DNA of 64,000 bases from Acorus gramineus (Eukaryota; Streptophyta; Magnoliopsida; Acorales; Acoraceae): the NCBI GenBank assembly GCA_030737835.1, contig JAUJYN010000018.1:1054001-1118000 (forward strand), in the 5' to 3' direction. The notes beneath the pieces are model-generated. The model was not told the DNA's origin and did no database searches. It was given only the letters and a program-made list of their open reading frames with translations. Positions 2,851 through 54,733 of this stretch are shown here, piece by piece (positions within the stretch are counted from its first letter, which is position 1; each line of letters starts with the position of its first letter). A program made the position numbers and the translations under genes.

Positions 2851-4244
2851 ACTTTTGTCACGCCCCAGGGTGGCCGTCCCCGATACGTGGCAAATATATA
2901 TAATATCAACAGTCCATACATGAGATCAATAAAAGACTCTACACAACATCAAAGGTAATAACGCAATTAACAAGGTAGCTGACATAATATATATACATAT
3001 AGCGGAAGCTTAAACGACTAAGTCTGTAATTCAAAGACATATTACAGACCAGAATACATAATCAACTATCCTGTGAGAGCCAATATAAAACAAAGACATC
3101 AACATACAAGTACTGTGCCCAAGCACGAGTAACAATACATACAAGGAAAAAGGGGGATGCTGATGGCCTCTCACTCGCAAGACCCAAAATGCGAACGCTG
3201 CTCTGCTACTGGTGCTACGCCTCGGGGAGCTCCTCCTTCAGATCCGACTCAGCGACAACTGGAGGAAAAATATGCGAGAGGTGAGCCACAAGCTCAGTGA
3301 ATGGTACAATACACGCAACACAACTCATATTAACCTTTAAAATCATTAAAGTCCCTAAGATGGGAGTAACTGCACAAATTGGTGGGTCGTAGCGACGCCG
3401 ACCCACCACACCCTCACCCTCACCCTTTAGAGGTGACATAGGACTTTTGGGAGAGATTAGACTGCTCTACACCCTTGGTCCACCGGTAGCCCTTTCCCCG
3501 GGTAGCCTCTACCTGGTATACTCCCATGATCAGTACGTTCCCGAACGCATCGGTAGTACCTACGGATGGGAGCCCTCTGTCAGGACAGCTTTTTCAACGC
3601 CGGATAGTTCCTACACGGATCCAACGAAGGGAAGAAAACAATCTACACTCGCAGATACGATCCTCTTGGATCCGTCGACACCGGTTACTAAACACCGATA
3701 AGGTAACGAATTCTCAAGAATTCCCTCCAGGGCGCATAACTCAGATGCGGGGAAAAACATATTATTCATAGTGACAATTGCCAAGTATGACCCCCATAAG
3801 TGGTCATACACTTGCCTAAACTCATTAGGCAAGATTTAAGGCTTAACTTAAGCATATAACATGGATAATAAATACAAGGAATTCATCATGGAAGCATTTA
3901 AATAATATAATAACAAGGTTATAATATTTTCTAAGGCATGCTTACACTTATGCTTTTCATAGATAGCTAAGGGTATACTTAGGCAAGGTCGGGGTGCATG
4001 TAGGAATCAAATGTTATCCTAACATGGGACATGATGCATGAACAAGCATTGGTCCCTACACATGATACTAGGATGTATAACCCTAACATGTTAGGTCTAA
4101 CATGACATGGATGCAACCTAGCAAGCCCAATAATAACATATACATGCAAATATGGTTAATATGCAGTTATGATGCCCCATGGGAGGGCAATGCACGTCTA
4201 CGTGCATCGAATGCCTCCCAACTGGGTTGGATCGACCCACTCAC

Positions 4245-4280
4245 CGCAACCCGGGTCGTTGCATGACCATTCGCCAAGAT
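4245..4280 (-). other. 36-nt microexon-like cassette in LTR A
   Basis: On the minus strand this block is preceded by CTCACC, a pyrimidine-rich stretch and CTTGCAG, and followed by GTGAGTGG. The spacing between AG and GT is exactly 36 nt, as in LTRs B, C, D and F. One frame through the block joins without a stop to the segment after the second acceptor (minus strand from 3258), which encodes AESDLKEELPEA and then a stop. Splicing is inferred, not shown. Confidence 0.5.
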
Positions 4281-4994
4281 CTGCAAGACAAGGGCATTCA
4301 ATATGGTGAGTATAGCTACACAAAAACACTTAAAATTAACTAGAAATGCCTAAGGCATAGACATGCACGCATACGGGTCCGCACGCATGCAAGTACGCAC
4401 GTATGCGCGCGTGTCCAAGTGCCCCAGCACCCACCCGCACCCTCAGGCTGCCACACGTGTGGCCCCGCACCCGTACGCACGCATAAGCACGCGCGCACGC
4501 ACCCCCGCACCCCTTGCAGCACTACCGCGCGCTTAGACGCGCTGCCGCGCGTGCGCACACTCTCGCGCACGCCTTCGCGCACTGCCCGCCCGCGCGAGTG
4601 CCCCGCGCGCACGCTCGCACGTTTGCACGTGCGCGTGCGCGCCGGCCAGCACGCCTGACTGCGAGCGCCACCACCCCTCTACGCGCGCGTCTGCGCACGC
4701 ACTCGCGCAGATAGCTCCGCGCGCGCGCCTAGACCTCTCCCATCCTCTCCACTGCCCTCACACACACCCTAACCCACATACATAGCATGCATGACCACCC
4801 TAACAGCCCTAACAACCATTAAAACAAAGATAAGGGAGGAGGAGAGCTTACCAAAGGAGGGGAAAGAAAAGGGGAGGTATTCGGGTGCTCTTGGCGCACC
4901 AAAACCACCGCAACCGCCACCACCAACACCACTACCTCCTCAGCCACTCCACAAGCCTTACTTGGCTGAAAATCAGGGGCAAAGGGAGCATGAG

Positions 4995-5108
4995 AGGGAG
5001 CCTAAGAGAAGGGAATCAACAACCACAACTACAACACACATACACACACACAGGGAGCCTAAGAGAAGGGAATCAACAACCACAACTACAACACACATAC
5101 ACACACAC
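4995..5108. repeat. tandem duplication, 2 x 57 bp, with (CA)n
   Basis: Two adjacent 57-bp copies begin AGGGAGCCTAAGAG at 4995 and 5052 and end in a CA-repeat. They lie inside LTR A and look like replication slippage. The Thr/His-rich reading frames across them are by-products of the repeat. Confidence 0.9.
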
Positions 5109-5694
5109 AGAAACACACACCTTTGTGTGCCCCTTCTCATTCACTACTCCTCCTCTTGTGCTTCTTTTTCTTCAAATCAGCACACACACAAAACAGAGAG
5201 GGATAGGGAGGCGTGAGAGGGAGTGAAAGAGAGAGAGAGGGAGCAAAAATGTTCCAATGGGGGGGGGGGTGTGATGAGAAGGGAAAAAAAGTGGAGGTAA
5301 AGACAACCTAAAACCACCCTCTAATACCAGAAGTAACCAAAGGATTTCTTAACTCTTAAGCAAGGAGGGGTAAGGTTACCCAAGGTGACCATAACCACCA
5401 AAATATCCCAACACTATTCCACTAAACAAACCAGTAATGACCGAAACCCGGATACGGTTTGGAACTACATAATTTTTAAAATGTTACTGGAATTCAATGA
5501 AATTTTTATGGGTAGTACTAAATGGTACCAGGACCTATAATATGCAGTTAGATTTTAAATCGGAGTACTCGAACTCACGCAGATAGCTAAAAGTCCAAAA
5601 TTTTAGCGGCTCCGATAAAAAAAAAAAAAATTGGAAAATGGCCAGAAATTACGCAAATGTGACCAAAAAGCTAAAAAGTGACACATATATAACA

Positions 5695-7578: not shown

Positions 7579-7616
7579 CCCTCGCATATATCCCACGACT
7601 CCCACCCGCCGGAAGA

Positions 7617-8358: not shown

Positions 8359-9193
8359 TGTTATATATGTGTCACTTTTATCCTTCTGGTAACCATTGGA
8401 CCATTCTGGCAGTTTTTTAACTTTTTCATTTTTCGATCGGAACCGCTAAAATTTTGGACTTTTAGCTATCATCCTGAGTTTGAGGACTCCGATTGAAAAT
8501 CTAACTGCATATTATGTGTCCTGCTGCCATTTCAAGCCACTCACGAAAATTTCATCGAATTCCGGTAACGTTTCAGAATTTCATAGTTCCGAAGCGTATC
8601 CGGGTTTTGACCGTGCGAAAAGTCATTGGGAGACTTTACTTGGTCAATGTGGGCCCATGACTTGGTCAACTCGTTTGTCTTCTAGTGTGGTTGGGTTGAC
8701 CCAAGTCAAAGTGCACCTAAACCTAGCCTAAACCAAGCCTAAACCTAATTAGGGCTAAGTTGAGTGGGTGTGTGTGTGTGTGTGGTGTGTGTGTGTGAGT
8801 GCTTTAAGTGGGCGCCCATGTATAGTTCCCCCTCCCCTATTCATCATCTTCTCCACCAAAACCTCTCTCTCCCTTCTCTTTAAAATCCCCATATGACCTA
8901 GTAGAAGGTATTGAATCAAGAAACCCTAGAAGGAGAAAAGGAAGGTGAGGACCCGATCTATCTTCCTATGGTCTTGGACCTTCATTTCCCCTTGTTTTTC
9001 CTCTTCTAATGGACCCTCTTCTCCTCTGTTTTCACCCCCTCTTTGGCTGAGTGGAGATCTTGGTGGTGGTGATCTTGGAGGTGGCAAATCGGTGCGCGAA
9101 GAGCACCTGATCTCCTTCCCTTCCCTTCCTCTCCTTTGGGTGAGTTTCCTTTCCGTCCATTCTTGTTTAGATGCATGTTTAGGAGGTGTTTTT
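8359..9193 (+). repeat. LTR of chromovirus B, left part (interrupted by element C)
   Basis: It starts TGTTATATATGTGTCAC right after the polypurine tract. It runs through a GT-repeat and a splice-donor-like GGGTGAGT (GT at 9140-9141) up to the insertion site of element C. The sequence resumes at 18821, so the unbroken LTR would be about 2.76 kb. This is the 3' LTR of B. Confidence 0.93.
8766..8797 (+). repeat. (GT)n microsatellite
   Basis: A GT-repeat with one interruption lies in the U3 part of LTR B. It is not present in this form in LTRs C or D, so it is a recent expansion. Confidence 0.9.
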
Positions 9194-12100
9194 TGTTATA
9201 TATGTGTCACTTTTAACCTGCTGGTAACCGTTGGAGCATTCTGGCAGTTTTTAATTTTTTTCGGTTTTCGATCGGAACCGCTAATTTTTTGGACTGTTAG
9301 CTATCGTCCTGAGTTAGAGGACTCCGATTGGAAATCTAACTGCATATTTGGTGTCCTGGTGCCATTTTAGGCCTCTCACAAAAATTTCGTCGAATTCCGG
9401 TAACGTTTCCAAAATTTCGCAGTTTCGGGGCGTATCTGGGTTTTTAAGTCGCTCACTATATATATGTGTGATCTAATTTCGAAATCACTATTCATCATCC
9501 CTACCAAGTGATTTCTCTCTCTCCCCTCTCTCCTTTTCTCACTTTTGAGCCCCCTAGAGCCCTCAAACCTAAAAACCTAAAACCTAGGAAGTCCCGATCT
9601 ACACCCCGGTGGTTTCAAATCTCGATTCCGGCGAGATTTGCCCCTCCGTCCCCCCTCTCTTCTCCTCTGTTTTGGGCTGTTTTGGAGGTGGGAGTAGATC
9701 CGGGCGGTGGAAGCCTTTGGGGAAAGGTTTCGGCGCGCGGAGAGCGTCCGGACTTCCCTTCCTCCCCTTGGTAACTATTTCCCCTCTTTTCTTGTTTAGA
9801 TGGATGCTAGGAGGTGGGTTTTGGGGTTGGGTGGAGGTCGGCGGCTGTGGGTGGCCGTCGGAGGGCGGTGGAGGTAGAGGTGCTCGGGTAAGGGTGTGGG
9901 GTGGTCTCGGGCTGGCAGGCTGCTGTCTCGGGCAGGGCAGCAACGCAGGGCAGCAGGCGCAGTGGCTGGCGCTCGGGTGGCGGGCGTGCGCGTGTGCGTG
10001 CGCTCGGGTGGCGCTGGGGGCCAGCAGGGCTGGGCAGGCTGGGTAGGACTAGCCGAGTAGGCTGGGAGCTGGCGCACCAGTTGCCGGGCGCGCGAGCGCG
10101 TGCGCGCGGGCGCGCGCGCGGGCGTGCGCTCGGGGGGGGGGGTGCAGGGGGAGGCATGCGGGTAGGCAGGCTGTGGGCTGTGCCCGCGGGCAGGCCGGGC
10201 TGGCAGGCTGGGCGCGCAGGCGAGCAGGGCAGGAGGTGCTCGGGCATCAGGCGAGCAGTGCGGGCGTGCAGGTGAACGGTGCTCGGGCCACTCGGCGACG
10301 CGTGCAGGCAGGCAACGAGGGCAGCAGCGTGGGCATGCTGGCAGGCGCGCTGGGCGCGTGTTGCGCGTGCGTGCGCGTGGGCGCTGGGTGAGGGTCCCGG
10401 GTGCTGGGCGCTGAGCACTGGGAGCTGGTCGCGGATACCGGGTGTGCTGGGCGAGGGTGCTGAGCGCTGGGCGCTGGGCGCCGAAGTGGTGTATGCGCGC
10501 GGGGCGCTGGGTTGAGGCGCAGTCGTGCGCGCGGTGAGGAGGGTAGAGGTTGGTGGTGCGCGCGGGGTGCGCGCGGAGCGAGGTGGTGCGCGCGGGGTGC
10601 GTGCGGGGTGCTCGCGGGCCAGCGCGAGGCGTGCGGGGTGTGCGCGGGCGGCTGCGCTGGGGCGCAGGGGGCGCGCGGTGCACCAGGGAGGTTCGGCGGT
10701 GCGCGGGGTGCGTTGGCTGAGGCGCGGCGGTGCACCCGGGCGGCCGTGCGGGTGGTTGCCGGGGGTGCTCGGGCTAGCGTGCGTGCGGGTCGTATGCACG
10801 TTTGCCGAGTATTAGGTGTTTAGTTGTGGGTTTTGTATGTTTGGGTATTTTAGAGTATTTATGTATTGTTCTCACCATATTGAATGTCTGTCTTGCAGAT
10901 CCGGACGGACGGTCGCGCGACGACCCAGATACCGGTGAGTGGGACAATCCAACCCAGTAGAGAGGCGTTATACGCACTTGGGCGTATACCGACCTCTCCT
11001 GGGGCACCATGGATGTATATTAACCTGCAGTAATATGTAATCCATGCTTGCATGATTTAAATGTAGAATGCATGCTACCCTAGACTTTGCATGTTAGGGA
11101 CTTGCACCCTTAGGATAGGTGTAAGAGCCATGCACCATGCCCCCTGTTTTCATGATAGGAAACCTCGGCCTATGCATGCGTCCTACTAGTTTATTTATTA
11201 AATTAAATGCTAGTGTATGTTAATTCGCATGCCTTAGATAATATTATAGGGAGGAGCCTTGCGAGGTCAACATTGAGACCCGTGTTAGGGTACTCCGTGT
11301 TCCTTGTTTGGTTGTCGGGATGTCCTGTATCGGGACCTCATGCTGCCCTCCCAAGGTTTCTAGTCCCAATAATATTATATGTAATGTTGTATGATTAGTA
11401 TGATTATTAGCATGTTAGTGAATATTATAGGGGAGGGCCTTGCGAGGACAGCGGTGAGACCCGGGTTAGGGTACTCCGTGTTCCTTGTTTGGTTGTCGGG
11501 GTATCCTATATCGGGAACTCACGCCGCCCTCCCGAGTTCTTTCCCCCAATGATATTACAACCTTGCTTTTATTGTTCATGATCCCCGCATCTTGGTTATG
11601 CGCGCTGGAGGAACTCTGAAGAGTTCATGACATTTGAGTTGTAGAGATGTGTTGTCGGCGGATCCGAGTGGATCATATGCGTATGGATAGGCTGTTCTGT
11701 TCTCTTCGTTGGATCCGGTAGAGACTACCCCAGCGTTAGAAAGGCCGTCCTTCAGAGGACCCACATCAGTAGGCGCCTCCCGATATTTGTGACGGACTGT
11801 GCTGAAGTTGTGGGTGGGACCAAGCGGCCTACGGAGTGGAGGAGAGACTATCGGTGGACCAAGGGTGACCAACAGCCTAGTCAGTCCCAAAATCCTATGT
11901 CACCTGTGGTAGGGTGAGGGTGAGGGTGTAGTGGGTTGGCGATGAGCGACCTACTGGATTTGTGGTTGGATGATTATCAGTCCCAATAGCCTATGTCACC
12001 CATTGATGGGTGAGGGTGAGGGTGTGGTGGTTCGGCGAGGTACGAACCACTGGATTATGTTGTTATGTCTTAGAGGCTGGATAAATAATGGAATTGTGGT

Positions 12101-12575
12101 AAATATTGTCTGTGATGCATGGGTTGTGCTGTTCACTGAGCGTGTGGCTCACCCCTCGCATATGTTTTTCCCCAGTGGTCACTGAGCCTGAGCTAGAGCC
12201 GGAGCAGCAGTTGGAGCTTTCCGAGGGATTCCTTCAATAGCGGAGCAGCGCCACGTTCCGCGAGTGCCAGAGGTTATCAACATCCCTTCTTGACTGTATG
12301 TATTTTATTTTCGTGCTTGGCACGCGTTTGTATATATTCACTTGTGTTGTGTATATTGGTTCTCACAGGACAGATGATTGAGTATCGAGTCTGTAGTATG
12401 TTTATTTACAGATTCAGTCTTTTGCTTCCGCATTTGGTGTATATATCATGTCAGCACTTTGTTCCTGTGTGTCATTCTGGCTGTTTGTGTATGATATATT
12501 ATTGACCTCCTGTGTAGTTCTGATATTATATATACACTTGCCGCGTCCCGGGGACGGCCGCCCTGGGGCGTGACA
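9194..12575 (+). repeat. 5' LTR of element C (3.4 kb)
   Basis: It starts TGTTATATATGTG and ends GGGGCGTGACA. A TATA-like CTATATATATG near 9456 lies only about 260 bp in, so U3 is short and the transcribed part about 3 kb. Regions in order: conserved U3; pyrimidine-rich leader (9500-9560); donor-like GT at 9771; very GC-rich stretch (9820-10800); acceptor and 36-nt cassette (10899-10934); TACGCACTTGGGCGTATA inverted repeat near 10970; a tandem block repeated at about 11243 and 11425 (GTACTCCGTGTTCCTTGTTTGG); GAGGGTGAGGGTG blocks near 11915 and 12012; second acceptor at 12174-12175; then the R/U5 end. The long Ala/Pro/Arg frames in the GC-rich part occur on both strands and are not taken as genes. 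Confidence 0.95.
10899..10934 (+). other. 36-nt microexon-like cassette in the 5' LTR of C
   Basis: It is bounded by GTCTTGCAG upstream and GTGAGTGG downstream, with a branch-point-like CTCACC about 24 nt before the AG. The frame reading DPDGRSRDDPDT across the block joins in frame to the segment after the acceptor at 12175, which reads VTEPELEPEQQLELSEGFLQ and then stops. The upstream donor in this copy is GTAACT, weaker than the GTAAGC of the 3' LTR. Splicing is inferred. Confidence 0.55.
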
Positions 12576-12580
12576 AAAGT

Positions 12581-12592
12581 TGGTATCAGAGC
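12581..12592 (+). other. primer binding site of element C (tRNA-Met initiator)
   Basis: TGGTATCAGAGC lies five bases after the LTR end and is the standard plant initiator-tRNA-Met site. It fixes the plus orientation and the LTR boundary. Confidence 0.95.
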
Positions 12593-12694
12593 CTGGTCCT
12601 GTCAGAGCCAATAGTCCTCCTTTCGTAGAGATGAGTCCTAGGATTTCTATACGAGTATTCTGATCCTAGTGTCTGGTTTTCTTAGGGTGCTGAT

Positions 12695-13828
12695 ATGCCT
12701 CCTCACATAGGACGGCGCGGACGAGGTCCCTCTCGGTCTTTGGAGGTTTCCGGACCTACCAGAGACGAGGATGCTATGGGAGAGTCCTTGGCGCAGGAGC
12801 CTCCTGCTTGGGAGCGTGCTTTCGCTCGGTTGGCTGATTTGGTGGAGACACAGACGCGGATGTTGGCAGAGCAGGCTAGAGAGATTCAGGAGCTGAGGCG
12901 ACCCGCGAGGCAGTTCCGCAGGTCCCCTTGGTGGCAGATCCGCCTGTGGTACCCGATGTACCCCCAGTTCCGGTGGCGATTCCGGCGGTAGGAGTCCAGG
13001 GTCCCCTGCAGAGGGAGGAGGAGCTAGAGGCGGCAGCGCGAGTGCAGCAGAGCGGCCTCAACGCCTTTCTGAAGCTCCACCCTCCCGAGTTCCATGGGCA
13101 GACGCAGATCCTCTTGCGCCAGAGCGTTGGTTGAGGGAGGTGGACACGATCTTCGCGGCCATGCTTTGCACTGATCGCCAGCGAGTCCCCCTGGCCAGCT
13201 TTATGCTGAAGGGTAACGCCGCCGACTGGTGGGCTACCCGAGTGGTGGACATCCCAGAGGGAGTGGAGCAGCTTTCTTGGGCGGGTTTCCGGAGGCATTT
13301 TCTGGACGAGTATTTCCCGTTCTCGACGAGCCAGATGGTGATGCGGGAGTTTGAGCAGTTGGCGCAGGGCTCCATGTCGGTTGCTGACTACTCTACGAGC
13401 TTTACGAGGCTGTCCAGATTCGCTCCAGCATTGGTGATGGACGAGGAGTCGAGGTGCCGTCGATTCGAGCTCGGTCTCAGCAGCGCTATCCGGTGCACGT
13501 CACCGCCCACGCTTTCACGAGGTACTCCGACTTAGTGTCTCGGGCGAAGACCGTCGAGAGAGACCTCGGGATCCAGGTGCGGGCTCCGACCCCTTCTTCA
13601 GATCAGAGTCCTTCCGGGAGTCGGGACCAGGGGCAGCGCAAGAGGAAGAGGCCCCGCTTCGATCAGTCAGCGGCTGCCTCTCCTCCAGCTGATGCGGTGC
13701 CAGGGTGGGACCCAGCACCCATTGCAGCAGTGCCCATCCAGTCCATGCAGCCGGAGAAGCGGCGCTGTTTTCATTGTCAGCGCATCGGGCATATCAGATA
13801 CCATTGCCCTGATGCTGGCCGACCCTGA
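12695..13828 (+). pseudogene. gag of element C (frameshifted)
   Basis: Gag starts at 12695 with MPPHIGRRGRG. The N-terminal region includes a probable coiled coil (ADLVETQTRMLAEQAREIQEL). A capsid domain follows at about 13050-13500 (LCTDRQRVPLASFMLKGNAADWW and MREFEQLAQGSMSVADYS). The CCHC knuckle CFHCQRIGHIRYHC lies at about 13768-13809, ending in PDAGRP and a stop at 13828. The frame changes near 12920, 13100 and 13490, so this copy makes no full Gag. The homologous frame continues past the stop (13829-14010) with a Gln-rich tail and AALTAEEVQPSG, the join to protease in element A. Here protease is absent and unrelated sequence begins near 14020. Confidence 0.93.
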
Positions 13829-14019
13829 GTGCCACCTCAGCAGCCGCAGTTCTTACAGCAGCAGCTTCTGGGCCAGCAGCCAGAGCAGCCGGCGAGGCGT
13901 GCTCCTGCTCCTCAGCCGCGGTTGGTCCAGGGCAGAGTTGCAGCACTTACGGCCGAGGAGGTGCAGCCTTCGGGTATCATGGTTCGAGGTATTATCTTGT
14001 GTTCTCAACTCTCTAGTAT

Positions 14020-14735
14020 AGGATATATGTGGGTGTGTGTTTGGTTGCTGTTATGCAAGTGTGTGTGGTATTGATGAGCGAGTGTCAAGAGCGGTTGTTT
14101 GGGTTAAGGAAGCCGGGTTATAGCGTCCTGGCAGAGAATTCCCATCAGTAGGTACCACCGATGCAGTCGGAGGGGTACTGATTGGGAGTATGCAGGTAGG
14201 GGGCTACCCGGGGATAGATTATGGAATGGTGTCGCGGGCGTGGGATCGCTCTCCCCTTCGTCAGTTTCGTGTAGTACAGCCCCGGCGTTAGACAGGCTCG
14301 CGGTCAGAGGACCAGGCGAGCTACGGAGCGGAGAGGCTACCGGTGGACCAGGGGTAGAGAGCAGTCTAAGTCTCTCCCAAAGTCCCAAAATGTCTCCTTT
14401 CGGGAGTGAGGGTGTGGATGAGGCGAAGACGGGTGGCTCGTGACCCAATTTCTGTTGGACCATTCCCAATGATGTTGGGTGGTCTTGTAGGGATGTTGAA
14501 GGACATCGTTAGGTGATCATCTAGAGGTAGATGATCCGGAGGGGTTAGTGGTGTTCTTTAAAATGATGTCTTCTTTTAGTGTTCCTTTCTGGATTAAGGG
14601 GCCTTGTGAGGTCGGCGTTGAAACCCGGGCTAGGGTACTTCGTGTTCCTTGTTTGGTTGTCGGGGTATCCTATATCGGGATTTCATGGTGCCCTCCCGAG
14701 GTTTCTTTCCCAGGTAAGGGATGCCATAGAAGCAT
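14020..14735 (+). mobile_element. captured LTR-derived segment inside element C
   Basis: About 715 bp between gag and the pol remnant match LTR sequence, not pol. 14110-14540 resembles the middle of the E/G-type LTR (compare 45830-46330: CATCCGTAGGTACCACC, GCAGTCTAAGTCTC, GGGAGTGAGGGTG and the TAGATGATCC block). 14590-14700 resembles the GTGTTCCTTGTTTGGTTGTCGG block of the B/C/D LTRs. The two blocks are in the opposite order to that in an LTR, so the segment was rearranged on capture. Element F holds the same segment between the same flanks (52536-53305). Confidence 0.85.
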
Positions 14736-15085
14736 CAGATAGATGAGAGATCGAGTGCGAGTTTGGTTAGAGGTTAAGGCCTTTGGGCTGAGTGATTTCT
14801 GGTGAAGGCATATCTGTGGACCCGAGCAAGACGCTCGTCGCGTCAAATTGGCGCCGACCGTCGAACCCCGTAGGGATTCGGAGCTTCCCGAGTTTAGCAG
14901 GTTATTGTAGGAAGCTTGACGAGGGACTCTCGAAGATAGCTGTTCCTCTTAATCGCCTTACTCGGAAGGATGTCCGGTTCGAGTGGTCCCCGTCTTGCGA
15001 GGAGAGCTTCCTGGAGTTTTATCGGAGGCTCACCTCAGCGCCAATTCTTACCTCTCCGTCTTGGAGTGGTGGGTTCGCAGTTGGG
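14736..15085 (+). pseudogene. reverse transcriptase / RNase H junction remnant of element C
   Basis: Only the end of reverse transcriptase and the connection to RNase H remain. The block GEGISVDPSKTLVASNWRRPSNP is at about 14804-14870, followed by FPSLAGYCRKL, KIAVPLNRLTRKDVRFEWS and RRLTSAPILTSPS. It breaks at about 15080 just where RNase H would begin, and chromodomain-side sequence follows. The catalytic aspartates are absent, so no polymerase activity is possible. Confidence 0.9.
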
Positions 15086-15089
15086 TAAA

Positions 15090-15320
15090 GGTGTGTCCAC
15101 GATCCTGCTCACGTCATCCTGTTCGAGCCGCTCGTCTCTGAGCCGGACAGTCATTCGTGGAGCAGTCGATTGAGATCATGGACCGTTGCGTGAGGAGGCT
15201 CTGCGCCAAGACCGTTCAGTTGGTCGAGGTGCGATGGCAGCACCGTTACGGTGTCGAGGACACTTGAGAGCTCAAGGATGCCAGGTGTGACGCGTATCCG
15301 CATTTTTTCCCCTCCTAGAT
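15090..15320 (+). pseudogene. chromodomain-side integrase tail remnant of element C
   Basis: The sequence resumes at the CVHDPAHVILFEPLV block and continues with the QLVEVRWQHRYGVEDT chromodomain core to a stop before the polypurine tract. RNase H and the integrase zinc-binding and catalytic domains are deleted between this and the preceding remnant. A TGA and frame changes are present. Confidence 0.88.
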
Positions 15321-15350
15321 GTTTTTGCATATTTTGAGGACAAAATTTCC

Positions 15351-15364
15351 TAAGGGGGGAAGAA
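15351..15364 (+). other. polypurine tract of element C
   Basis: TAAGGGGGGAAGAA directly precedes the 3' LTR at 15365. Confidence 0.9.
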
Positions 15365-18300
15365 TGTTATATATGTGTCACTTTTAACCTGCTGGTAACC
15401 GTTGGAGCATTCTGGCAGTTTTTCATTTTTTTTCAGTTTTCGATCGGAACCGCTAATTTTTGGACTGTTAGCTATCGTCCTGAGCTAGAGGACTCCGATT
15501 GGAAATCTAACTGCATATTTGGTGTCCTGCTACCGTTTTAGGCCTCTCACGAAAATTTTGTCGAATTCCGGTAACGTTTCCAAAATTTCACAGTTTCGGG
15601 GCGTATCTGGGTTTTTAAGTCGCTCGCTATATATCGGTGTGATCTAATTTCGAAATCACTATTCATCATCCCTACCAAGTGATTTCTCTCTCTCCCCTCT
15701 CTCCTTTTCTCACTTTTGAGCCCCCTAGACCCCTCAAACCCGAAAACCCAAAACCTAGGAAGTGTAGATCGGGTCCGATCTACACCCCGGTGGTTTCAAA
15801 TCCCAATTCCGGCGAGATTTGCCCCTCCGTCCGCCCTCTCTTCTCCTCTGTTTTGGCCCATTTCAGAGGTGGGAGTAGATCCGGGCGGTGGAAGCCTAAG
15901 GAGAAAGGTTTCGGCGCGCGGAGAGCGTCCGGACTTCCCTTCCTCCCCTTGGTAAGCCCTATTTCCCCTCTTTTCTTGTTTAGATGGATGTTAGGAGGTG
16001 GGTTTTGGGGTTGGGTGGAGGTCGACGGCTGTGGGTGGCCGTCGGAGGGCTGTGGAGGTGGTCGGAGGTCGGTGGGTGGTGGTAGAGGTGCTCGGGTAAG
16101 GGTGGGGGGTGGTCTCGGGCTGGCAGGCTGCTGTCTCGGGCAGGGCAGTAGGCGCAGCGGCTGGCGCTGGGGGCCAGCAGGGCTGGGCGAGCGTGCGCTC
16201 GGGTGGCGCTGGGGGCCAGCTGGGCTGGGCAGGCTGGGTAGGACTAGCCGGGTAGGCTGGGAGCAGGCACACCAATTGCCGGGCGCTCGAGCGCGTGCGC
16301 GCGGGCGCGCGTGCGGGCGTGCGCTCTGGGGGGGTGCAGGGGGAGGCATGATGGTAGGCAGGCTGTGGGCTGTGCGCGCGGGCAGGCCGGGCTGGCAGGC
16401 TGGGCGCGCAGGCGAGCAGGGCAGGAGGTGCTCGAGCATCAGGCGAGCAGTGCCGGGCGTGCAGGTGAACGGTGCTCGGGCCACTCGGCGACGCGTGCAG
16501 GCAGGCAACGCGGCCAGCAGCGTGGGCATGCTGGCAGGCGCGCTGGGCGCGTGTTGCGCGTCCGTGCGCGTGGGCGCTGGGTGAGGGTCCCGGGTGCTGG
16601 GCACTGAGCGCTGGGAGCTGGTCGCGGATACCGGGTGTGCTGGGCGAGGGTGCTGAGCGCTGGGCGCAGGGGCGCTGGGCGCTGGGCACCGCAGTGGAGT
16701 ATGCGCGCGGGGCGCTGGGTTGAGGCGCAGTCGTGCGCGCGGTGAGGAGGGTAGAGGTTGGTGGTGCGCGCGGGGTGCGCGCGGAGCGAGGTGGTGCGCG
16801 CGGGGTGCATGCGGGGCGAGGCGCTGCGCGCGGGGCGTGCGGGGTGCTCGCGGGCCAGCGCGAGGCGTGCGGGGTGTGCGCGGGCGGCTGCGCTGGGGCG
16901 CAGGGGGCGCGCGGTGCACCCGGGCGGTTCGGCGGTGCGCGGGGTGCGTTGGATGAGGCGCGGCGGTGCACCCGGGCGGCCGTGCGGGTGGTTGCCGGGG
17001 GTGCTCGGGCTAGCGTGCGTGCGGGTCGTATGCACGTTTGCCCGAGTATTAGGTGTTTAGTTGTGGGTTTTGTATGTTTGGGTATTTTAGAGTATTTATG
17101 TATTGTTCTCACCATATTGAATGTCTGTCTTGCAGATCCGGACGGACGGTCGCCCGACGACCCAGATACCGGTGAGTGGGACAATCCAACCCAGTAGAGA
17201 GGCGTTATACGCATTTGGGTGTATACCGACCTCTCCTGGGGCACCATGGATGTATATTAACCTGCAGTAATATATAATCCATGCTTGCATGATTTAAATG
17301 TAGAATGCATGCTACCCTAGTCTTTGCATATTAGGGACTTGCACCCTTAGGATATGTGTATGAGCCATGCACCATGTCCCCTGTTTTCATGCTAGGAAAC
17401 CTCGGCCTATGCATGCGTCCTACTAGCTTATTTATTAAATTAAATGATAGTGTATGTTAAACCGCATGCCTTAGATAATATTATAGGGAGGAGCCTTGCG
17501 AGGTCAACATTGAGACCCGTGTTAGGGTACTCCGTGTTCCTTGTTTGGTTGTCGGGATGTCCTGTATCGGGACCTCATGCTGCCCTCCCAAGGTTTCTAG
17601 TCCCAATAATATTATATGTAATGTTGTATGATTAGTATGATTATTAGCATGTTAGTGAATATTATAGGGGAGGGGCCTTGCGAGGACAGCGGTGAGACCC
17701 GGGTTAGGGTACTCCGTGTTCCTTGTTTGGTTGTCGGGGTATCCTATATCGGGAACTCACGCCGCCCTCCCGAGTTCTTTCCCCCAATGATATTACAACC
17801 TTGCTTTTATTGTTCATCTTCCCCGCATCTTGGTTATGCGCCCTGGAGGAACTCTGAAGAGTTCATGGCATTTGAGTTGTAGAGATGTGTTGTTGGCGGA
17901 TCCGAGTGGATCATATGCGTATGGATAGGCTGTTCTGTTCTCTTCGTTGGATCCGGTAGAGACTACCCCAGCGTTAGAAAGGCCGTCCTTCGGAGGACCC
18001 ACATCAGTAGGCGCCTCCCGATTTTTGTGACGGACTGTGCTGAAGTTGTGGGTGGAGACCAAGCGGCCTACGGAGTGGAGGAGAGACTATCGGTGGACCA
18101 AGGGTGACCAACAGCCTAGTCAGTCCCAAAATCCTATGTCACCCGTGGTAGGGTGAGGGTGAGGGTGTAGTGGGTTGGCGATGAGCGATCTACTGGATTT
18201 GTGGTTGGATGATTATCAGTCCCAATAGCCTATGTCACCCATTGATGGGTGAGGGTGAGGGTGTGGTGGTTCGGCGAGGTACGAACCACTGGATTATGTT

Positions 18301-18815
18301 GTTATGTCTTAGAGGCTGGATAAATAATGGAATTGTGGTAAATATTGTCTGTGATGCATGGGTTGTGTTGTTCACTGAGCGTGTGGCTCACCCCTCGCAT
18401 ATGTTTTTCCCCAGTGGTCACTGAGCCTGAGCTAGAGCCGGAGCAGCAGTTGGAGCTTTCCGAGGGATTCCTTCAGTAGCGGAGCAGCGCCACGTCCCGC
18501 GAGTGCCAGAGGTTATCAGCATCCCTTCTTGACTGTTTGTATTGTGTTATCGTGCTTGGCACGCGTCTGTATGTATTCAGTCGTATTGGTGTATATTGGC
18601 TCTCACAGGACAGATGATTGAGTATCGAGTCTGTAGTACGTTTATTTACAGATTCAGTCTTTTGCTTCCGCATTTGGTGTATATATCATGTCAGCCTTTT
18701 GTTGCATGTGTGTCATTCTGGTTGTTTGTGTATGATATATATTATTGACCTCCTGTGTAGATTCTGATATTATATATACACTTGCCGCGTACCGGGGAGC
18801 GCCCGGGGCGTGACA
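15365..18815 (+). repeat. 3' LTR of element C (3.45 kb)
   Basis: It matches the 5' LTR along its whole length and has the same ordered blocks. It starts TGTTATATATGTG and ends GGGGCGTGACA, then TTTTT. Differences seen by eye include the TATA region (CTATATATCGG at 15628 against CTATATATATG), extra GC-rich sequence near 16050-16080 and 16660, and a shortened end (ACCGGGGAGCGCCCGGGG). Donor GTAAGC is at 15952, the cassette at 17136-17171 and the second acceptor at 18413-18414. Confidence 0.95.
17136..17171 (+). other. 36-nt microexon-like cassette in the 3' LTR of C
   Basis: It has the same length and flanks as the 5' LTR copy (GTCTTGCAG before, GTGAGTGG after, CTCACC branch-like motif). The clean donor TTGGTAAGC lies at 15951-15956, so the inferred introns are 15952-17135 and 17172-18414. 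Confidence 0.55.
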
Positions 18816-18820
18816 TTTTT

Positions 18821-20744
18821 GGGTGTGGAAGGTGAGCATGAGTGGTTGGGGTGAGGGAGGGCTGAGGGAGGTGTTTGTGCCGGCTCAGGCAGTGCGGGCT
18901 CCTCGACGCGTGCGCGCAGGCAGGCAGGCAGGAAGGCAGGGTAGGCAGGCTGGCAGGACACGCGCGCATGCGCGCAGGCGTGCGTGCGGGTGCTGCGCGC
19001 TGGGCGCCGTGCGGGGGCGTGCGCGCGGAACGCTGCGCAGAGGCGCAGTGCGTGCTTTGCGCGCGGTGAGGCGAGCGGGTGTGCGGGCGGGGTACTGCGC
19101 GGGGGTGCAGTGCTTGCGGGTGTGCGCGCGAGGTGCTGCGCTGGGGCGCAGTGCGCGCGGGTGCATTCGGGGCTGGACGCGCGGTGCGCACGAGCGCACA
19201 CGTGCGTGCGCCCGAGCGTGCGGTGTGTCTGGGCGCGCGGGCTGGGCGCAGCAGCATGTTTGGGCGTGCGGGCAGGGGCTCGGCAGCGTGACCGGGCATG
19301 CGGGCAGGGGGCTCGGCAGTGCGTCTGGGTGCGCGGGCTGGGGTGCGGCTGTGCGCCCGGGGCGGGTGGCCGTGCGTATGGCTGCCCGGGGGTTCGGGAG
19401 TGAGTCGGGGTGCTCGGACTCGCGTGCGTACGGGCCATATGTACGCTTGTCCGAGTGTTGGTATTTTTAGCGTATTTTTGTATGTATTGTGTATTTTTAC
19501 TCACCGTGTTTAATACCCTGTCTTGCAGATCTTGACGGACGGTCACGCGATGACCCGGGTATTGGTGAGTGGGGCACCATAGTTTAATATTAACTTGTAT
19601 AATATGTAATGTATGCAAGCATGATTGTTTTATAGTATGCATGCCGCCCTAGATCTTGTATGTTAGGGACTTACACCCTTAGGATATGTGTAAGAGCCAT
19701 GCATCCTGATACCATATTTTCATGCTAGGAAGCCTTGACCTATGCATGTATCCCATTAGTTTAAATTATTTTAAATCAAATGTGAACTTATGGTTATTAG
19801 CATGCCTTAGAGAATATTATAACCGATGGTTATAATATATGGTTCCCCGCATCTTAGTTATGCGCCCTGGAGGAATTCTGAAGAATTCATGACATTAGAG
19901 TTGATGAGATGTGTTGCCGACGGATCCAAGTGGATCGTATACGTGTGGATAGGCTGTTTCTTTTCCCTTCGTTGGATCCGTATAGAGACTGCCCCAGCGT
20001 TAGACAGGCCGTCCTGACAGAGGGCTCCCATCAGTAGGCACCTCCTGATTTGGGTTCGGACTGTGCTGAATTGTGGGAGTAGACCAGGCGGCCTACGGAG
20101 TGGAGGAGAGACTATCGGTGGACCAAGGGTGATTAACAGCCTAGTCAGTCCCAATAGACCATGTCACCTATTGGAGGGTGAGGGTGAGGGTGTAGTGGGT
20201 CGGCGATGTAGCGACCCACTGGATTGTGTAGTTCCTGCCACTTTGAGGCTTTGAATAATTATTTGTGGTTAATATGAATTGTGATGCATGGGTTGTGCTA
20301 TTCACTGAGCGTGTGGCTCACCCCTCGCATATATTTTTCTCCAGTTATCACTGAGTCGGATCTGAAGGAGGAGCTCCCCGAGGGACTTCATCAGTAGCGG
20401 AGTAGCGCCATATTCCCGCGAGTGTTAGAGGCTATCAGCACCCCTTTTTTATTGTATGTATTATATTTCCGTGCTTGGGCACCTATGTGTATTATATTTG
20501 GATGTATTTGTGTATATTGGCTCTCACAGGACAGTTGATTATGTATCGAGTCTGTAATATATTTTTGAATTACAGACTCAGTCTTTTAGCTTCCGCTATT
20601 TGTGTATATATCATGTCAGCCTTGCTTTTGTCTGTGTTGTCATTTTAGCTGTTGTTTAGAGTATGTTATTGACCTCCTGTATAGACTGCTGATATCATGT
20701 ATACACTTGCCGCGTCTCGGGGACGGCCGCCCTGGGGCGTGACA
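18821..20744 (+). repeat. LTR of chromovirus B, right part
   Basis: This continues the LTR broken at 9193, starting GGGTGTGGAAGG and ending CCTGGGGCGTGACA at 20744. It has the GC-rich part (18900-19440), the 36-nt cassette (19529-19564), one GAGGGTGAGGGTG block (20176) and the second acceptor at 20343-20344. The downstream flank is coding-like minus-strand sequence, so B inserted into, or recombined with, the antisense ORF at 20745. Confidence 0.93.
19529..19564 (+). other. 36-nt microexon-like cassette in LTR B
   Basis: It is bounded by CTGTCTTGCAG and GTGAGTGG, with CTCACC 24-28 nt upstream of the AG. Joined to the segment after 20344, the frame continues as VITESDLKEELPEGLHQ and then stops. 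Element C lies inside the matching upstream intron (donor GT at 9140-9141). Confidence 0.5.
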
Positions 20745-30076: not shown

Positions 30077-33000
30077 TGTTATATATGTGTCACTTTTTAG
30101 CCTGCTGGTAACCGTTGGAGCATTTCTGGCAGTTTTAAATTTTTTAGTGTTTTTCGATCGGAACCGCATAATTTCAGACTGTTAGCTATCGTCTGAGCTA
30201 GAGGACTCCGATTGAAAATCTAACTGCATATTTGGTGTCCTGGTGCCATTTTAGACCTCTCACGAAAATTTCATCGAATTCTGGCATCGTTTGCAAAAAT
30301 TTCGCAGTTCCGGGGCGTATCCGGGTTTTTAAGTCGCACATTACATAAATGGAATCTAAAAATTTGAAATCACTATTCATCATCCCCGACCTTGAGCTCT
30401 CTCTCTCCTCTCCTCCGTTTTTCTTCCGTTTGAGCCCCCTCCACCCCTCGAAATCGAAAACCCAAAGCACGGGAAGTGTAGATCGGGTCCCGATCTACGC
30501 TCCGGTGTCTTCAAATCCGAATTCCGACGATCCTAGCCTCCCCGACCTCCCCTTTTCGTCCTCTGATTTGGCCCATTCCGAGGGACAAGCTAGATCGGGG
30601 CGTGAGAAGGCTTTTGGGAAGGGTTTCGGCGCGTGGAGATCCACCGGACGCCTCTTCCTCCCCTCGGTAAGCCTCCTTTCCCCCTTATTTCTTGTCTAGA
30701 TGATTGCTAGGGGAGGGTTTTGGGGTTGGGAGGTGGTTGGTGGCAGTGGAGGTGGTCGGAGGGCGGTCGGAAGTGGTTGGAGGGTGGTCGGTGGTCAAGG
30801 GAGAGGTGGTGGTGGCGCTCGGGCAGTGGCAGGTCGTCCGGGCCAAGCAGCAGCAGCAGCAGCAGCCCAGGCGGCGCCAGGTCGGGTGCGCGCGGGCAGG
30901 CGCGCGTGCGTGCGAGGGCGCGCGGGCCTGGTGCAGGGTGCTGGCCGGTGCTGGGCGAGCAGAGGCCGGTGCTGGGCGAGCTGGGCGGCTGATGCGCGTG
31001 GAGCAGGTCGCGCGGGTGCGCGGATGGCGTGCGCGAGGCCGTGGCGTGCGCGTGGCCGTGGCTGAGGGTGCGGATGGCGTGCGCGAGGCCGTGGCGTGCG
31101 CGAGGTCGTGGCTGGGGGTGCGGATGGCGTGCGCGGAGGCGGCGGCGAGGCCGTGGCGGTGCGCGGAGGCCGCGGCGAGGCCGTGGCGGTGCGCGGAGGG
31201 CGCGGTGAGGCCGCGGTGGTGCGCGCGAGGCGCGGCGAGGTGCGCGCGAGGCGCGGCGAGGTGGGCGAGGTGGCGGAGGTGTGCGCGGGGTGCGCGCGGG
31301 GCGAGGCGCTGCGCGCGGGGGCGCGCGGGGTGCTCGCGGGCCGGCGCGAAGCGTGCGGGGTGCGCGGGCTGAAGCGCGGCGGTGCACCCGGGCGGTCGGG
31401 TGGCCGTGCGGATGGTTGCCGAAGTGCTCGGGCTAACGTGCGTGCTGGTCGTGTGCACGTTTGCCCGAGTGTTAGGTGTTTGTTGTGGGTTTTGGGTATT
31501 TATTTGTGTATTTAATAATATTTGTGGATTTATACTTACCCAGTTAATACCCTGTCTTGCAGATCCCGACGGACGGTCGCGCGTCGACCCGAGTTCCGGT
31601 GAGTGGGACAATCCAACCCAGTAGAGAGGTGTTATACGCACTTGGGCGTATACCGACCTCTCCTGGGGCGTCATGGATAAATATTAACCTGCAATGATAT
31701 GTATATCATGCGAGCATGATTAAACTGTAGAATGCATGTTACCCTAGACTCTGCATGTTAGGGACTTGCACCCTTAGGATGTGTATGAGCCATGCAGCAT
31801 GTCCCCTGGTTCCATGTTAGGAAGCCCGGCCGATGCATGTGCCCTACTAGTTTATTTATTTGATTAAATGCTAGTATTTGTTTACAATGCATGTTATAGT
31901 GAATATTATAGGGGAGGGGCCTTGCGAGGACAGCGGTGAGACCCGGGTTAGGGTACACCGTGTTCCTTGTTTGGTTGTCGGGGTGTCCTATAATGGGAAC
32001 TCACGCTGCCCTCCCGAGTTTCTTTCCCCCAATGATATTCCACCCTGTTATAACCTTATGCATGTTCCCCGCATCGTAGTTATGCGCCCTGGTGGGTTCT
32101 GAGGAATTCAGAACATTAGTGTTGTTATAATGTGCCGTCTGCGGATCCAAGTGGATCATATGCGATGGTTAGGCTGTTCTGTTCCCTTCGTTGGATCCGG
32201 TAGAGACTACCCCAACGTTAGACAGGGCCTTCCTGACAGAGGGCTCCCATTAGTAGGCACCTCCTGATTTTGGACGGACTGTGCTGAATGTGGGAGTAGA
32301 CCAGGCGGCCTACGGAGTGGAGGAGAGCCTATCGGTGGACCAAGGGTGACCAACAGCCTAGTCAGTCCCAAAATCCTGTGTCACCCATTGAAGGGTGAGG
32401 GTGAGGGTGTAGCGGGTTGGCGGAAGCGACCCGTTGGTTTTTGGTGCAGTTAGTCCCAATATCCTGTGTCACCCATTGATGGGTGAGGGTGAGGGTGTGG
32501 CGGGTTGGCGGAAGCGACCCGCTGGTTATGTGTAGTCAGTCCCAAAATCCTATGTCACCCGTGGTAGGGTGAGGGTGAGGGTGTAGTGGGTTGGCGATGA
32601 GCGACCTACTGGATTTGTGAATGGATTATTATCAGTCCCAATAACCTATGTCACCCATTGATGGGTGAGGGTGAGGGTGTGGTGGTTCGGCGAAGTACGA
32701 ATCACTGGATCATGTTGTTATGTCTTAGAGGCTGGATAAATAATGGAATTGTGGTAAATATTGTCTGTGATGCATGGGTTGTGCCGTTCACTGAGCGTGT
32801 GGCTCACCCCTCGCACAATATTTTTTCTTCAGTGTCATCTGAGTCGGATCTGGAGGAGGAGCTCCCCGAGGGACTTCATCAGTAGCGGAGTAGCGCCACG
32901 TCCCGCGAGTTGCAGAGACTATCAGCATCCTTTGTACCAGTATGTATTATTTTCCGTGCTTGGGCACGCGTTTGTGTTGTATTTGGATCTCTTTGTATGT

Positions 33001-33224
33001 ATATTGGCTCTCACAGGACATGTGATTATGTATGGAGTCTGTAGTGTATTTTGATTACAGATTCAGTCTTAGTTATCCGCATTTGGTGTATATATATCCT
33101 GTCAGCCTTGCTTTTGTTGTCTGTGTGTCATTTTGGCTGCTTGTGTATGATATTATTGACCTCTTGAGTAGATTCTGATATATATATACACTTGCCGCGT
33201 CCCGGGGACGCCTGGGGCGTGACA
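30077..33224 (+). mobile_element. solo LTR D of the chromovirus family (3.1 kb)
   Basis: It starts TGTTATATATGTG and ends GGGGCGTGACA, with the same block order as LTR C: donor TCGGTAAGC (GT at 30667), GC-rich part (30700-31400), cassette 31563-31598, inverted TACGCACTTGGGCGTATA near 31635, and four GAGGGTGAGGGTG blocks (32394-32680) against two in C. The second acceptor TTTTTCTTCAG ends at 32832. The flanks TAATC and TGGCT do not match, so the target duplication was lost or the LTR arose by recombination between elements. It lies within the Tat-like LTR. Confidence 0.93.
31563..31598 (+). other. 36-nt microexon-like cassette in LTR D
   Basis: It is bounded by CTGTCTTGCAG and GTGAGTGG, with a branch-like CTTACC upstream. 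The frame DPDGRSRVDPSS joins in phase to VSSESDLEEELPEGLHQ and a stop after the acceptor at 32832. Confidence 0.55.
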
Positions 33225-34135: not shown

Positions 34136-34144
34136 CTATAAATA
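34136..34144 (+). promoter_or_regulatory. TATA box of the methionine gamma-lyase gene
   Basis: CTATAAATA lies 69 bp before the start codon at 34213, which would give a short 5' leader of about 40 nt. A run of A (34077-34096) lies just upstream. Confidence 0.7.
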
Positions 34145-34212
34145 AAATCCAATCTCCACCACCATCTCCCATCCAAAAAAAAAGAAAAACCAATCCTTCC
34201 GCAACACCATCA

Positions 34213-46300: not shown

Positions 46301-47093
46301 TTGGGCAGTTATCCCGATGTAGATGATCCAGTAGCGTTGTGTAGACCAGTAATTCCGGGTCTCTTCGACCAACGGTATGGTCTCTCCCCAAGAGACCCAA
46401 GAGTCTCCCTCCGGGAGTGAGGGTGAGGGTGAGGTTGGTGATTCAGTAGTGTCGTGTGGACCAGTAATTCCGCGTCTCTTCGACCAACGGTATGGTCTCT
46501 CCCCAAAAGTCCCAAGAGTCTTCCTCCGGGAGTGAGGGTGAGGGTGAGGTTGGTCGCGCCGTCGCGTGGCTTTGTTATCCATTGGGTTTCTACCCATGTT
46601 TTCCTTGAGAGGAAATTGTTTGAGTATTGAGCTATTGTATGGTGATTGGTTTCTAGCCACTCACTGAGCTTGTAGCTCACCCCTCGCATATTGTTCCTTT
46701 TCAGGGGCAGTGTTGGGCGTGGAGCTGGAGCTTCCCTGTGGCGTGGTCTTATGGGCGTGGAGTGTTCTTCCGGCGGGCAGCGAGTGCAAGGCTATCAGCA
46801 GTCCTAGAGTTATTTTGATGTATTGTAAATCGTGCATGTGGCACATGTTGTATTTTATTTGGTCTAGACTTGGCTCTCACAAGACATTGATTGTGTATTC
46901 GAGTCTGTAATAATGTTTTTGATTTACAGACATTGTTTATATATTATGCTTCCGCTTTTCAGTCAGTTATCATTATCCTTGCTTTGCCACCTTGTGTGTT
47001 GTTGTTGGAGTCTCTATTGACCTCAGGCATTGATAGCTGATATTCCATTATTGCCACGTCTCGGGGACGGCCGCCCTGGGTCGTGACACATTT
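43307..47093 (+). mobile_element. solo LTR E (3.8 kb) in copia H, near-perfect target duplication
   Basis: The LTR at 43312-47088 starts TGTTATGCCTGTGTCATTTGG and ends CCGCCCTGGGTCGTGACA. The flanks CATTC (43307-43311) and CATTT (47089-47093) differ at one base. Its ends and U3 core (CGCTAAAATTTT, GGAAATCTAACTG, TTCCGGTAACGTTTTG) are related to the chromovirus LTRs, but the first 60 bp and the middle differ. Donor TAGGTAAGC is near 44083, the cassette at 44627-44663 and the acceptor CCTTTTCAG ends at 46704. A GGGAGTGAGGGTGAGG block is repeated three times (46190-46550). No interior remains. Confidence 0.9.
44627..44663 (+). other. microexon-like cassette in LTR E (37 nt)
   Basis: It is bounded by CTTACCTTGCAG and GTGAGTGG, with a branch-like CTCACC upstream. 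At 37 nt it is one base longer than in the A-D/F copies. Sequence is only partly alike (GAT-CTC, GGATGGGATGCGCGA), but the position and splice signals correspond. Confidence 0.45.
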
Positions 47094-51700: not shown

Positions 51701-51871
51701 CACCAGGACACATAATATGTAGTTAGATTTTCAATCGGAGCCCTCAATCTCAGGGCGATAGCTAACAGCCCGAAATTTTAGCGGTTCCGATCGAAAAACG
51801 AAAAAAAAATCGAAAAACTGCAAGAATGTCCCAACGGTTACCAGAAGGTTAAAAGTGACACATATATAACA
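48767..51871 (-). repeat. 3' LTR of element F (3.1 kb)
   Basis: This is the reverse complement of the chromovirus LTR, ending at 51871 with ACACATATATAACA next to the polypurine tract. It has the GC-rich part (50340-51060), cassette 50208-50243 and CCCTCACCCTCACCCC blocks. In this copy the first acceptor reads CTTCCAG instead of CTTGCAG, so AG is kept. Confidence 0.93.
50208..50243 (-). other. 36-nt microexon-like cassette, left LTR of F
   Basis: It has the same 36-nt spacing on the minus strand. The following donor has changed from GTGAGT with preceding CG to TGTGAGTGG (still GTGAGT), and the acceptor is CTTCCAG. Confidence 0.45.
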
Positions 51872-51885
51872 TTCTTCCCCCCTTA
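51872..51885 (-). other. polypurine tract of element F
   Basis: On the minus strand CTAAGGGGGGAAGAA precedes the LTR, matching those of B and C. Confidence 0.9.
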
Positions 51886-51899
51886 GGAAATTTTGTCCT

Positions 51900-54728: not shown

Positions 54729-54733
54729 CTTTT

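Follow-up and report, generated by a model that had tools for sequence, protein, structure and literature searches.

Predicted introns inside the long terminal repeats of Ty3/gypsy elements of Acorus gramineus, and three solo repeats lacking the first of them

Introduction

The RNA of a retroelement must act as both message and genome. In human T-cell leukemia virus (HTLV), bovine leukemia virus (BLV) and the foamy viruses, the major splice donor lies in the R (repeat) region of the long terminal repeat (LTR), with the acceptors downstream. Several plant LTR retrotransposons are spliced as well, according to the portions of the published accounts available to us: BARE1, a Ty1/copia element of barley, has a facultative 104-nt intron at the end of gag that creates a stop codon, and CRR and Bagy-2 are named as spliced elements in the same source (PMC3735527); Ogre, a Ty3/gypsy element of the Tat lineage, carries an intron between its gag-prot and reverse transcriptase open reading frames (ORFs) and its RNA is spliced in part (PMC6317226); and short-GAG splicing of EVADE/ATCOPIA93 gives separate RNAs from one element (PMC12786077). 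Here we describe Ty3/gypsy LTRs in a 64-kb window of the Acorus gramineus genome (assembly GCA_030737835.1, contig JAUJYN010000018.1, positions 1,054,001 to 1,118,000; labeled C56 below), which we read together with the next 50 kb of the contig, 114 kb in all. Splicing in plant LTR elements is already known; here, the predicted splice sites appear to lie inside the LTR itself.

Judged from sequence, and with a probability of about 0.8, these long LTRs are split by two predicted introns around a non-coding microexon of ~36 nt, and three solo LTRs without intron 1 most likely arose from spliced RNA. An LTR is copied twice in each round of transposition, and plant elements are known to split the roles of message and genome by splicing of coding sequence. 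Because LTRs are commonly regarded as promoter and terminator DNA, introns within them could escape annotation.

Results

A predicted microexon flanked by splice-site motifs

A preliminary description of the window had proposed that seven LTRs (A, B, D, C5 and C3 of element C, and F5 and F3 of element F; Table 1) contain an AG/36 nt/GT block. We found the block at all seven of the coordinates given there, four on the plus and three on the minus strand and each in the sense orientation of its LTR, together with the flanking motifs, CTNAC and CTT(G/C)CAG upstream and GTGAGTGG downstream. The upstream interval ends in CTTGCAG in six of the seven and in CTTCCAG in F5, and the CTCAC or CTTAC motif begins 28-30 nt 5' of the microexon. 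The junctions proposed for C3, 15951/17136 and 17171/18415, are exact. The upstream donor is GTGAGT in B and GTAACT in C5, the remaining LTRs (C3, D, F and A) having GTAAGC or GTAAGG, and the second acceptor with its own CTCACC motif occurs in 7/7 LTRs. GT...AG ends, a YTNAY branch site and a pyrimidine tract are the traits of U2-type spliceosomal introns, and all of them are found here.

Three LTRs lack exactly the predicted intron 1

We searched the 398.6-Mb genome with a 127-nt query in which the exon-1 end, microexon and exon-3 start of LTR D were joined. Among the 40 best candidates, three pass without a gap through the exon-1/microexon junction, 36 stop at the exon edge, and one (L047) passes the edge by 2 bases at a mutated donor; as scoring was confined to these 40, the number of such D-like copies is at least three. 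Those found, L045 on C7, L046 on C69 and L048 on C8, read ...CCCTCG/ATCTTGACGG, ...TCCTTG/ATCTCGACGG and ...CCCTTG/ATCTTGACGG at the junction, and in comparison with C5, C3 and D each breaks at the donor and the acceptor within 2 nt. L045 is a complete LTR (C7:1405025 to 1407309) with a perfect target-site duplication (TSD), GATAG, on both sides; L046 and L048 are also complete, within perfect TSDs CTTGG and GCAGC. As each has its own perfect 5-bp TSD, all three are solo LTRs. Such duplications around LTRs with full ends suggest that the element itself integrated cDNA whose RNA template lacked intron 1. Their mutual likeness is 83-86%. Intron 1 ranges from ~685 to 1414 nt in 36 copies, and the deletions seen in L017, L047 and L043 (8150) are imprecise; given this, three deletions with identical ends are unlikely. 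Reverse transcription of spliced RNA is thus most likely the best explanation for the three LTRs. This exact loss of intron 1, not the column counts given below, is the strongest evidence that the sites matter.

In ~300 kb, other matches to the exon-1/microexon pattern, which also matches ordinary acceptors, were not junctions, except at L045, L046 and L048 (L055 repeats the place of L045). The splicing claimed in the preliminary description is therefore strongly supported for intron 1, of which exactly that segment is missing from three LTRs, and for intron 2 it is a prediction from signals. The accompanying claim that unspliced RNA serves as genome stands in part: all 15 blocks in the 114 kb are preceded by intron-1 sequence, but the rule is not exclusive, because the three intron-1-less LTRs imply reverse transcription of RNA without that intron as well. 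For this question we could not use the 38 C/D copies discussed below, as the probes contain intron-1 sequence.

Conservation of the signals

Copies outside the window were picked by a pattern requiring CAG and GTGAG, and those within it had been chosen earlier for their signals. In 14 aligned copies with pairwise identities down to 48%, GTGAGTGG, AG and the C, T, A and C of CTNAC are invariant, while N is C, T or A; CTAAC occurs again in L053. Among nine representatives, 13/13 signal columns are invariant as against 54/193 others (Fisher p 1.9e-7); with B added (10 rows), which aligns poorly past donor 2, the count is 13/13 against 36/193 (p 2.0e-9), and for the non-E families alone 13/13 against 81/192 (p 2.5e-5). 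These p-values are too good because the copies were selected by pattern or chosen for their signals and share descent. Five signal columns were left free by the pattern (C, T, A and C of CTNAC and the final T of GTGAGT), and all five are invariant in the nine representatives, as are 14/36 columns of the microexon body and 24/75 of intron 2.

As a control, we masked the signals in 15 probe blocks and took all matches from 14 records (the 114 kb, L055+L056, L039, L046-L054, L058 and L060; C/D copies were left out). This gave 23 new places, 22 of them with >=120 aligned columns (the L056 end, with 99, was excluded). Donor 2 reads GTGAGT at 17 of the 23 and is interrupted at two. Of the 22, nine are disrupted. 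They comprise the three intron-1-less LTRs; 105087 and 108786, a single exon split in two by an inserted LTR; L047 and 102179, which carry deletions; and 60025 and 94264, in which the sequence preceding donor 2 is altered or replaced. At the 13 undisrupted places, CAG is present in 13/13, GTGAGT in 10/13 and an exact CTNAC in 10/13, the other three being offset by one letter in the alignment; with these three branch reads omitted, 150/157 signal letters fit, at a flank identity of 78-97%. The signals thus persist in intact copies and are lost from decayed ones. The match to a splice grammar is real in these LTRs, but the LTRs have a common origin and were chosen because they carry the signals.

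Donors, acceptors and intron composition

Donor 1 differs by family, reading GTAAGC, GTAAGG, GTGAGC or GTGAGT with A or G at +3. In 38 C/D copies, fetched by close similarity to the probes, it is GTAAGC in 34, GTAACT in one and GTAGGC in one and was not found in two; donor 2 is GTGAGT in 36 and ATGAGT in two, and acceptor 2 was found in 37. Acceptor 2 is present in 20/20 LTR ends that hold the region (21 were listed, of which 63811, a fragment without it, was excluded), with CAG in all 20 even though the search did not require it. The seven columns before this CAG contain T or C at 140/140 letters. In eight representatives, 31/44 of the last intron columns are invariant compared with 13/36 of the first exon columns (p = 2.1e-3), and exon 3 just past the AG differs between E and non-E families. 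For donor 2, no GT site scores better in C5, C3, D or F3, and one, two and four sites score higher in A, E1 and F5, respectively. The acceptor-2 pattern CACTGAGCNTGTNGCTCACCCC had 0 exact matches in viral and genome contig collections, none of which is a plant collection.

Intron 1 is GC-rich (0.61-0.71) and intron 2 is not (0.44-0.50), although the last 100 nt of intron 1 fall to 0.35-0.41, a low-GC end that resembles the tendency of plant introns to U-richness noted in the available part of PMC3735527. Two further candidates were dropped: a third intron in exon 3 (GTATGTATT...CTCACAG) is not conserved in the E family, and three stretches inspected for splicing from pol to the LTR showed no conserved donor; upstream of B, the pol ORF ends in ...YPHLFPS and a stop before the polypurine tract (PPT).

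Microexon length varies between families

The exact length of 36 nt first proposed holds for all seven LTRs named above but is not universal, other copies having 35, 37 or 39 nt. A pattern search of the 114 kb gave 15 blocks, of which 11 have 36 nt, one (LTR E1, absent from the preliminary description) has 37 and three have 39; a further copy, L049, has 35. Around the site, E1 shares 58% identity with C5 and 71% with A. Its signals are ACTCACC and CTTGCAG/ATC...GCG/GTGAGTGG with 37 nt between the sites, a donor CCCTAG/GTAAGC upstream and the same acceptor 2 as in other LTRs; in three E relatives within the next 50 kb the 39-nt exon ends TAAG/GTGAG. Microexon length drifts and the frame is lost, and the flanking signals stay. 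With 37 nt in E1 and 39 nt in three relatives, the microexon is unlikely to be coding.

Other E-type copies show rearrangements of this region. At L043 160-420 (minus strand), the microexon and upstream sequence of an E-type LTR have given way to unrelated sequence that ends in GTTAG/GTGAGTGG, which leaves donor 2 next to a different exon, perhaps an exchanged one. In L044 (~1060 and ~4786, corresponding to 105087 and 108786), an element with E-type LTRs is inserted within the microexon of another E LTR. The E1 leader also holds a further candidate intron upstream, at 43900-43981 (82 nt, AAG/GTGAGT...TGATTTGCAG/CCAAAG), and an acceptor-like end in common with it, TGATTTTCAG/CCAAG, occurs in A (near 4966) and in Eb.

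The predicted leader

A TATA-like box precedes CACTATTCATC by ~30 nt in C and F and is weaker in D and B. Transcription would start inside the LTR at this TATA/CACTATTCATC element, ~280 nt upstream of donor 1 in C. With that inferred start and a gag ATG read at 12693, the predicted C5 leader shortens from 3203 nt with 57 ATGs unspliced to 834 nt with six ATGs spliced. The preliminary description had splicing remove about 2 kb of GC-rich leader before gag; the length fits (2369 nt in C5), but of the two introns only intron 1 is GC-rich. Intron 2 of C5 contains 42 ATGs where composition predicts 22.6.

Organization and classification of the elements

LTRs C5 and C3 flank the 2.8-kb internal region of element C, which is itself nested in LTR B, inside the predicted intron 1 of the latter and with TTTTT as TSD on each side, so that B is split into two parts. 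Complete LTRs start with TGTTATATATG and terminate in GGGGCGTGAC. The internal regions of C and F (12576-15364 and 51872-54732), each ~2.8 kb, hold gag and the end of pol, for which reason these elements are probably non-autonomous; a Gag of Ty3 type (PF03732) was identified by Pfam in both. A stretch of the C internal region (14597-14706) resembles LTR intron 2. Two further LTRs, L011 and L019, are mosaics of a D-type microexon and a C-type exon 3, and are products of recombination between families within the LTR.

A PBS-like (primer-binding-site-like) sequence, TGGTATCAGAGC, which we take to match tRNA-Met, lies 4-5 nt past the LTR, and a G-rich tract precedes the LTR. LTR lengths range from 2839 to 3777 nt (7 LTRs), and the TSDs are TTTTT (element C), GATAG, CTTGG and GCAGC. 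These values are consistent with Tekay/Del elements; in beet, most Tekay LTRs are ~2.6-3.0 kb long, with a 5-bp TSD, a tRNA-Met PBS near the 5' LTR and a PPT (PMC3605345, as far as the available text goes). LTR length, TSD, PBS and PPT thus fit Tekay-clade chromoviruses as described for beet. The ORF at 7579-8307, upstream of B, gave PF24626 (SH3_Tf2-1) alone in Pfam, and several of its listed homologs carry the chromodomain PF00385; the viral contig collection yielded no confirmed relative of the pol ORF.

A short, hairpin-like inverted repeat, GAGTCTGTAAT...ATTACAGACTC, lies near the LTR 3' end (12380-12420 in C5); the C, D, F, A and B LTRs have it in the corresponding place and E has part of it, and both arms show changes. 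Rfam gave 0 matches at the gathering score in the window. A methionine gamma-lyase-like host gene with several exons occupies 34108-38021 on the plus strand, its best listed protein matches being 79-80%.

Table 1. LTRs and predicted transcript features in the window.
Feature	Position	Strand	Remarks
LTR A	2856..5694	-	
A microexon, 36 nt	4245..4280	-	intron 1 4281-4851, intron 2 3259-4244
LTR B	8359..20744		two parts, 8359-9193 and 18816-20744
B intron 1, first part	9140..9193	+	TTTGG/GTGAGT; element C insertion point
B intron 1, second part	18816..19528	+	terminal TCTTGCAG
B microexon, 36 nt	19529..19564	+	intron 2 19565-20344
Element C	9194..18815		nested in LTR B
LTR C5 (5' LTR of element C)	9194..12575	+	TGTTATATATG...GGGGCGTGACA, then PBS-like TTGGTATCAGAGCC
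C5 exon 1	9487..9770	+	ends CCCTTG/GTAACT; start inferred from TATATATA and CACTATTCATC
C5 intron 1, 1128 nt	9771..10898	+	GC 0.71, last 100 nt 0.36; matching segment exactly absent from three other LTRs
C5 microexon, 36 nt	10899..10934	+	
C5 intron 2, 1241 nt	10935..12175	+	GTGAGT...TTTTTCCCCAG; predicted only
C5 exon 3, LTR part	12176..12575	+	
LTR C3	15365..18815		
C3 intron 1	15952..17135	+	CCCTTG/GTAAGC...TTGCAG
C3 microexon, 36 nt	17136..17171	+	
C3 intron 2	17172..18414	+	predicted only
LTR D	30077..33224		
D intron 1, 896 nt	30667..31562	+	CCCTCG/GTAAGC
D microexon, 36 nt	31563..31598	+	
D intron 2, 1234 nt	31599..32832	+	predicted only
LTR E1	43312..47088		
E1 microexon, 37 nt	44627..44663	+	intron 1 44085-44626 (CCCTAG/GTAAGC), intron 2 44664-46704
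LTR F5	48766..51871	-	
F5 microexon, 36 nt	50208..50243	-	intron 1 50244-51115, intron 2 49150-50207
LTR F3	54733..57946	-	
F3 microexon, 36 nt	56262..56297	-	intron 1 56298-57180, intron 2 55120-56261

Discussion

Several observations weigh against two introns around a microexon. The invariance of all 13 signal columns is partly built into the selection of copies, and intron 2 is itself well conserved in the non-E families (41/75 columns, seven representatives). The preliminary description took it that the AG/GT positions would be better conserved than their surroundings; they are in the 13 undisrupted places, but not in the 22 unselected ones, where consensus signal letters were kept at 222/279 and flank letters equaled the best probe at 3640/4307 (0.80 vs 0.85). 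Donor 2 reads ATGAGT at 4 of the 23 new places, two of which are the two LTRs of one element. The copy at 60025 (E2) has GTGAGT but CAA at the expected CAG and no AG before the exon, and at two more E-type places, including 94264, the sequence 5' of donor 2 has been replaced or deleted. A microexon-like block lies within 4.2 kb of 15/20 LTR ends (one of them with CAA), and none was found within that distance in the other 5/20. In each LTR, 2 to 10 GT sites match better than its donor 1. All three intron-1-less LTRs retain intron 2, L048 with ATGAGT at donor 2, and a microexon/exon-3 junction, as left by removal of intron 2, was not found in the ~300 kb examined. As for the leader, two ATGs in F, five in A and eight in E1 lie between LTR position 291 and donor 1, the microexons of A and E1 hold two ATGs each, and all six ATGs remaining in the spliced C5 leader are in exon 3. 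With ATGs before donor 1 and within microexons, there is no clean rule of ATG removal.

The observations on intron 2 are what one would expect if intron 1 were the only working intron, with relic or regulatory sequence at donor 2 and acceptor 2 and a long second exon that begins with the 36-nt block: intron 2 is present in all three processed LTRs, its donor is changed in one of them and at four new places, and its junction was not seen in the stretch searched. Against this, GTGAGTGG is found even between families of 48% pairwise identity (in copies partly selected for it), GTGAGT mostly stays where the upstream signals are lost, and acceptor 2 is retained at every LTR end holding the region, with a tract of T and C only, even though the exon that follows has been replaced between families. 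We consider a single working intron unlikely, if still worth serious attention. Ordinary DNA deletion, with motifs that are not splice sites, could be invoked for the intron-1-less LTRs, in that intron 1 lies in GC-rich sequence whose variation in length implies common indels, and imprecise deletions do occur in L017, L047 and L043 (8150); three copies 83-86% alike that share endpoints at GT and AG, where no more than 1 nt (G) overlaps, make such an origin very improbable.

Two other explanations concern the function of the block. If the microexon and exon 3 encoded the end of a small LTR-encoded protein, the in-phase reading ...DGRSR.. + V(S/V)(S/T)E...LPEGLHQ-stop in D and F3, from which C differs by a 12-nt in-frame insertion, would be accounted for. 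The exon is 37 or 39 nt long in E, however, exon 3 differs there, a stop falls inside A, and the frame of exon 1 varies between LTRs, without an ATG in C or D; with lengths of 36, 37 and 39 nt and a frame that is not kept, we rejected a coding role, which has hardly any chance of being right. A conserved DNA or RNA element, such as a promoter, packaging or methylation signal, that mimics a pair of splice sites would fit the fair conservation of the microexon body and intron 2 in the nine representatives, and signal letters that are no better kept than the flanks over all 22 unselected places. The variation, however, follows the rules of splice sites (the N of CTNAC, either A or G at +3 of donor 1, a tract of T and C only) and intron 1 is exactly absent from three copies, so that we give mimicry very little credence.

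If both introns are spliced, U2-type splicing would join exon 1, microexon and exon 3 and would remove a leader of ~2.4 kb with most upstream ATGs before gag. Spliced RNA would likely serve mainly for translation and intron-containing RNA mainly as genome, a separation that would leak, RNA without intron 1 having entered reverse transcription at least three times to give new insertions. We tentatively suggest, as a distinct possibility that we would not yet favor, that the lineage has acquired, in its own LTR, a three-exon split leader which is rewritten in both LTRs at each round of reverse transcription, that splicing sorts short translatable from genomic RNA, and that the intron-1-less solo LTRs are fossils of the leak. 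On such a split-leader reading R would be ~2.9 kb, and whether strand transfer keeps or loses the introns would depend on the length that strong-stop DNA reaches before it jumps.

LTR introns could supply ready donors and acceptors beside host genes. Intron-less solo LTRs would also provide a genomic record of spliced RNA without the need for expression data, a test that is applicable to any assembled genome.

A splice site in R is common to HTLV, BLV, the foamy viruses and the LTRs described here; the difference is that here both donors and both acceptors lie in one LTR. In the literature surveyed, mostly titles and the starts of abstracts, no intron wholly inside a plant LTR was described, and the main text of PMC3059260 makes no mention of splic, intron or untranslated. 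The nearest plant systems, as represented in the available parts of their accounts, resemble these elements in some respects and depart from them in others. BARE1 is alike in that the RNA of a plant LTR retrotransposon is partly spliced, yielding RNA pools with different fates, but its intron is in the gag region (PMC3735527), whereas the introns proposed here are in the LTR and apparently non-coding. Ogre is likewise Ty3/gypsy, with an internal intron between two ORFs rather than one in the LTR. In EVADE, CRR and Bagy-2, splicing acts on coding sequence or serves an env message, no intron pair wholly inside an LTR being described. Instead of an internal coding intron of the Ogre, BARE or EVADE type, the Acorus elements would thus carry their introns wholly inside the LTR.

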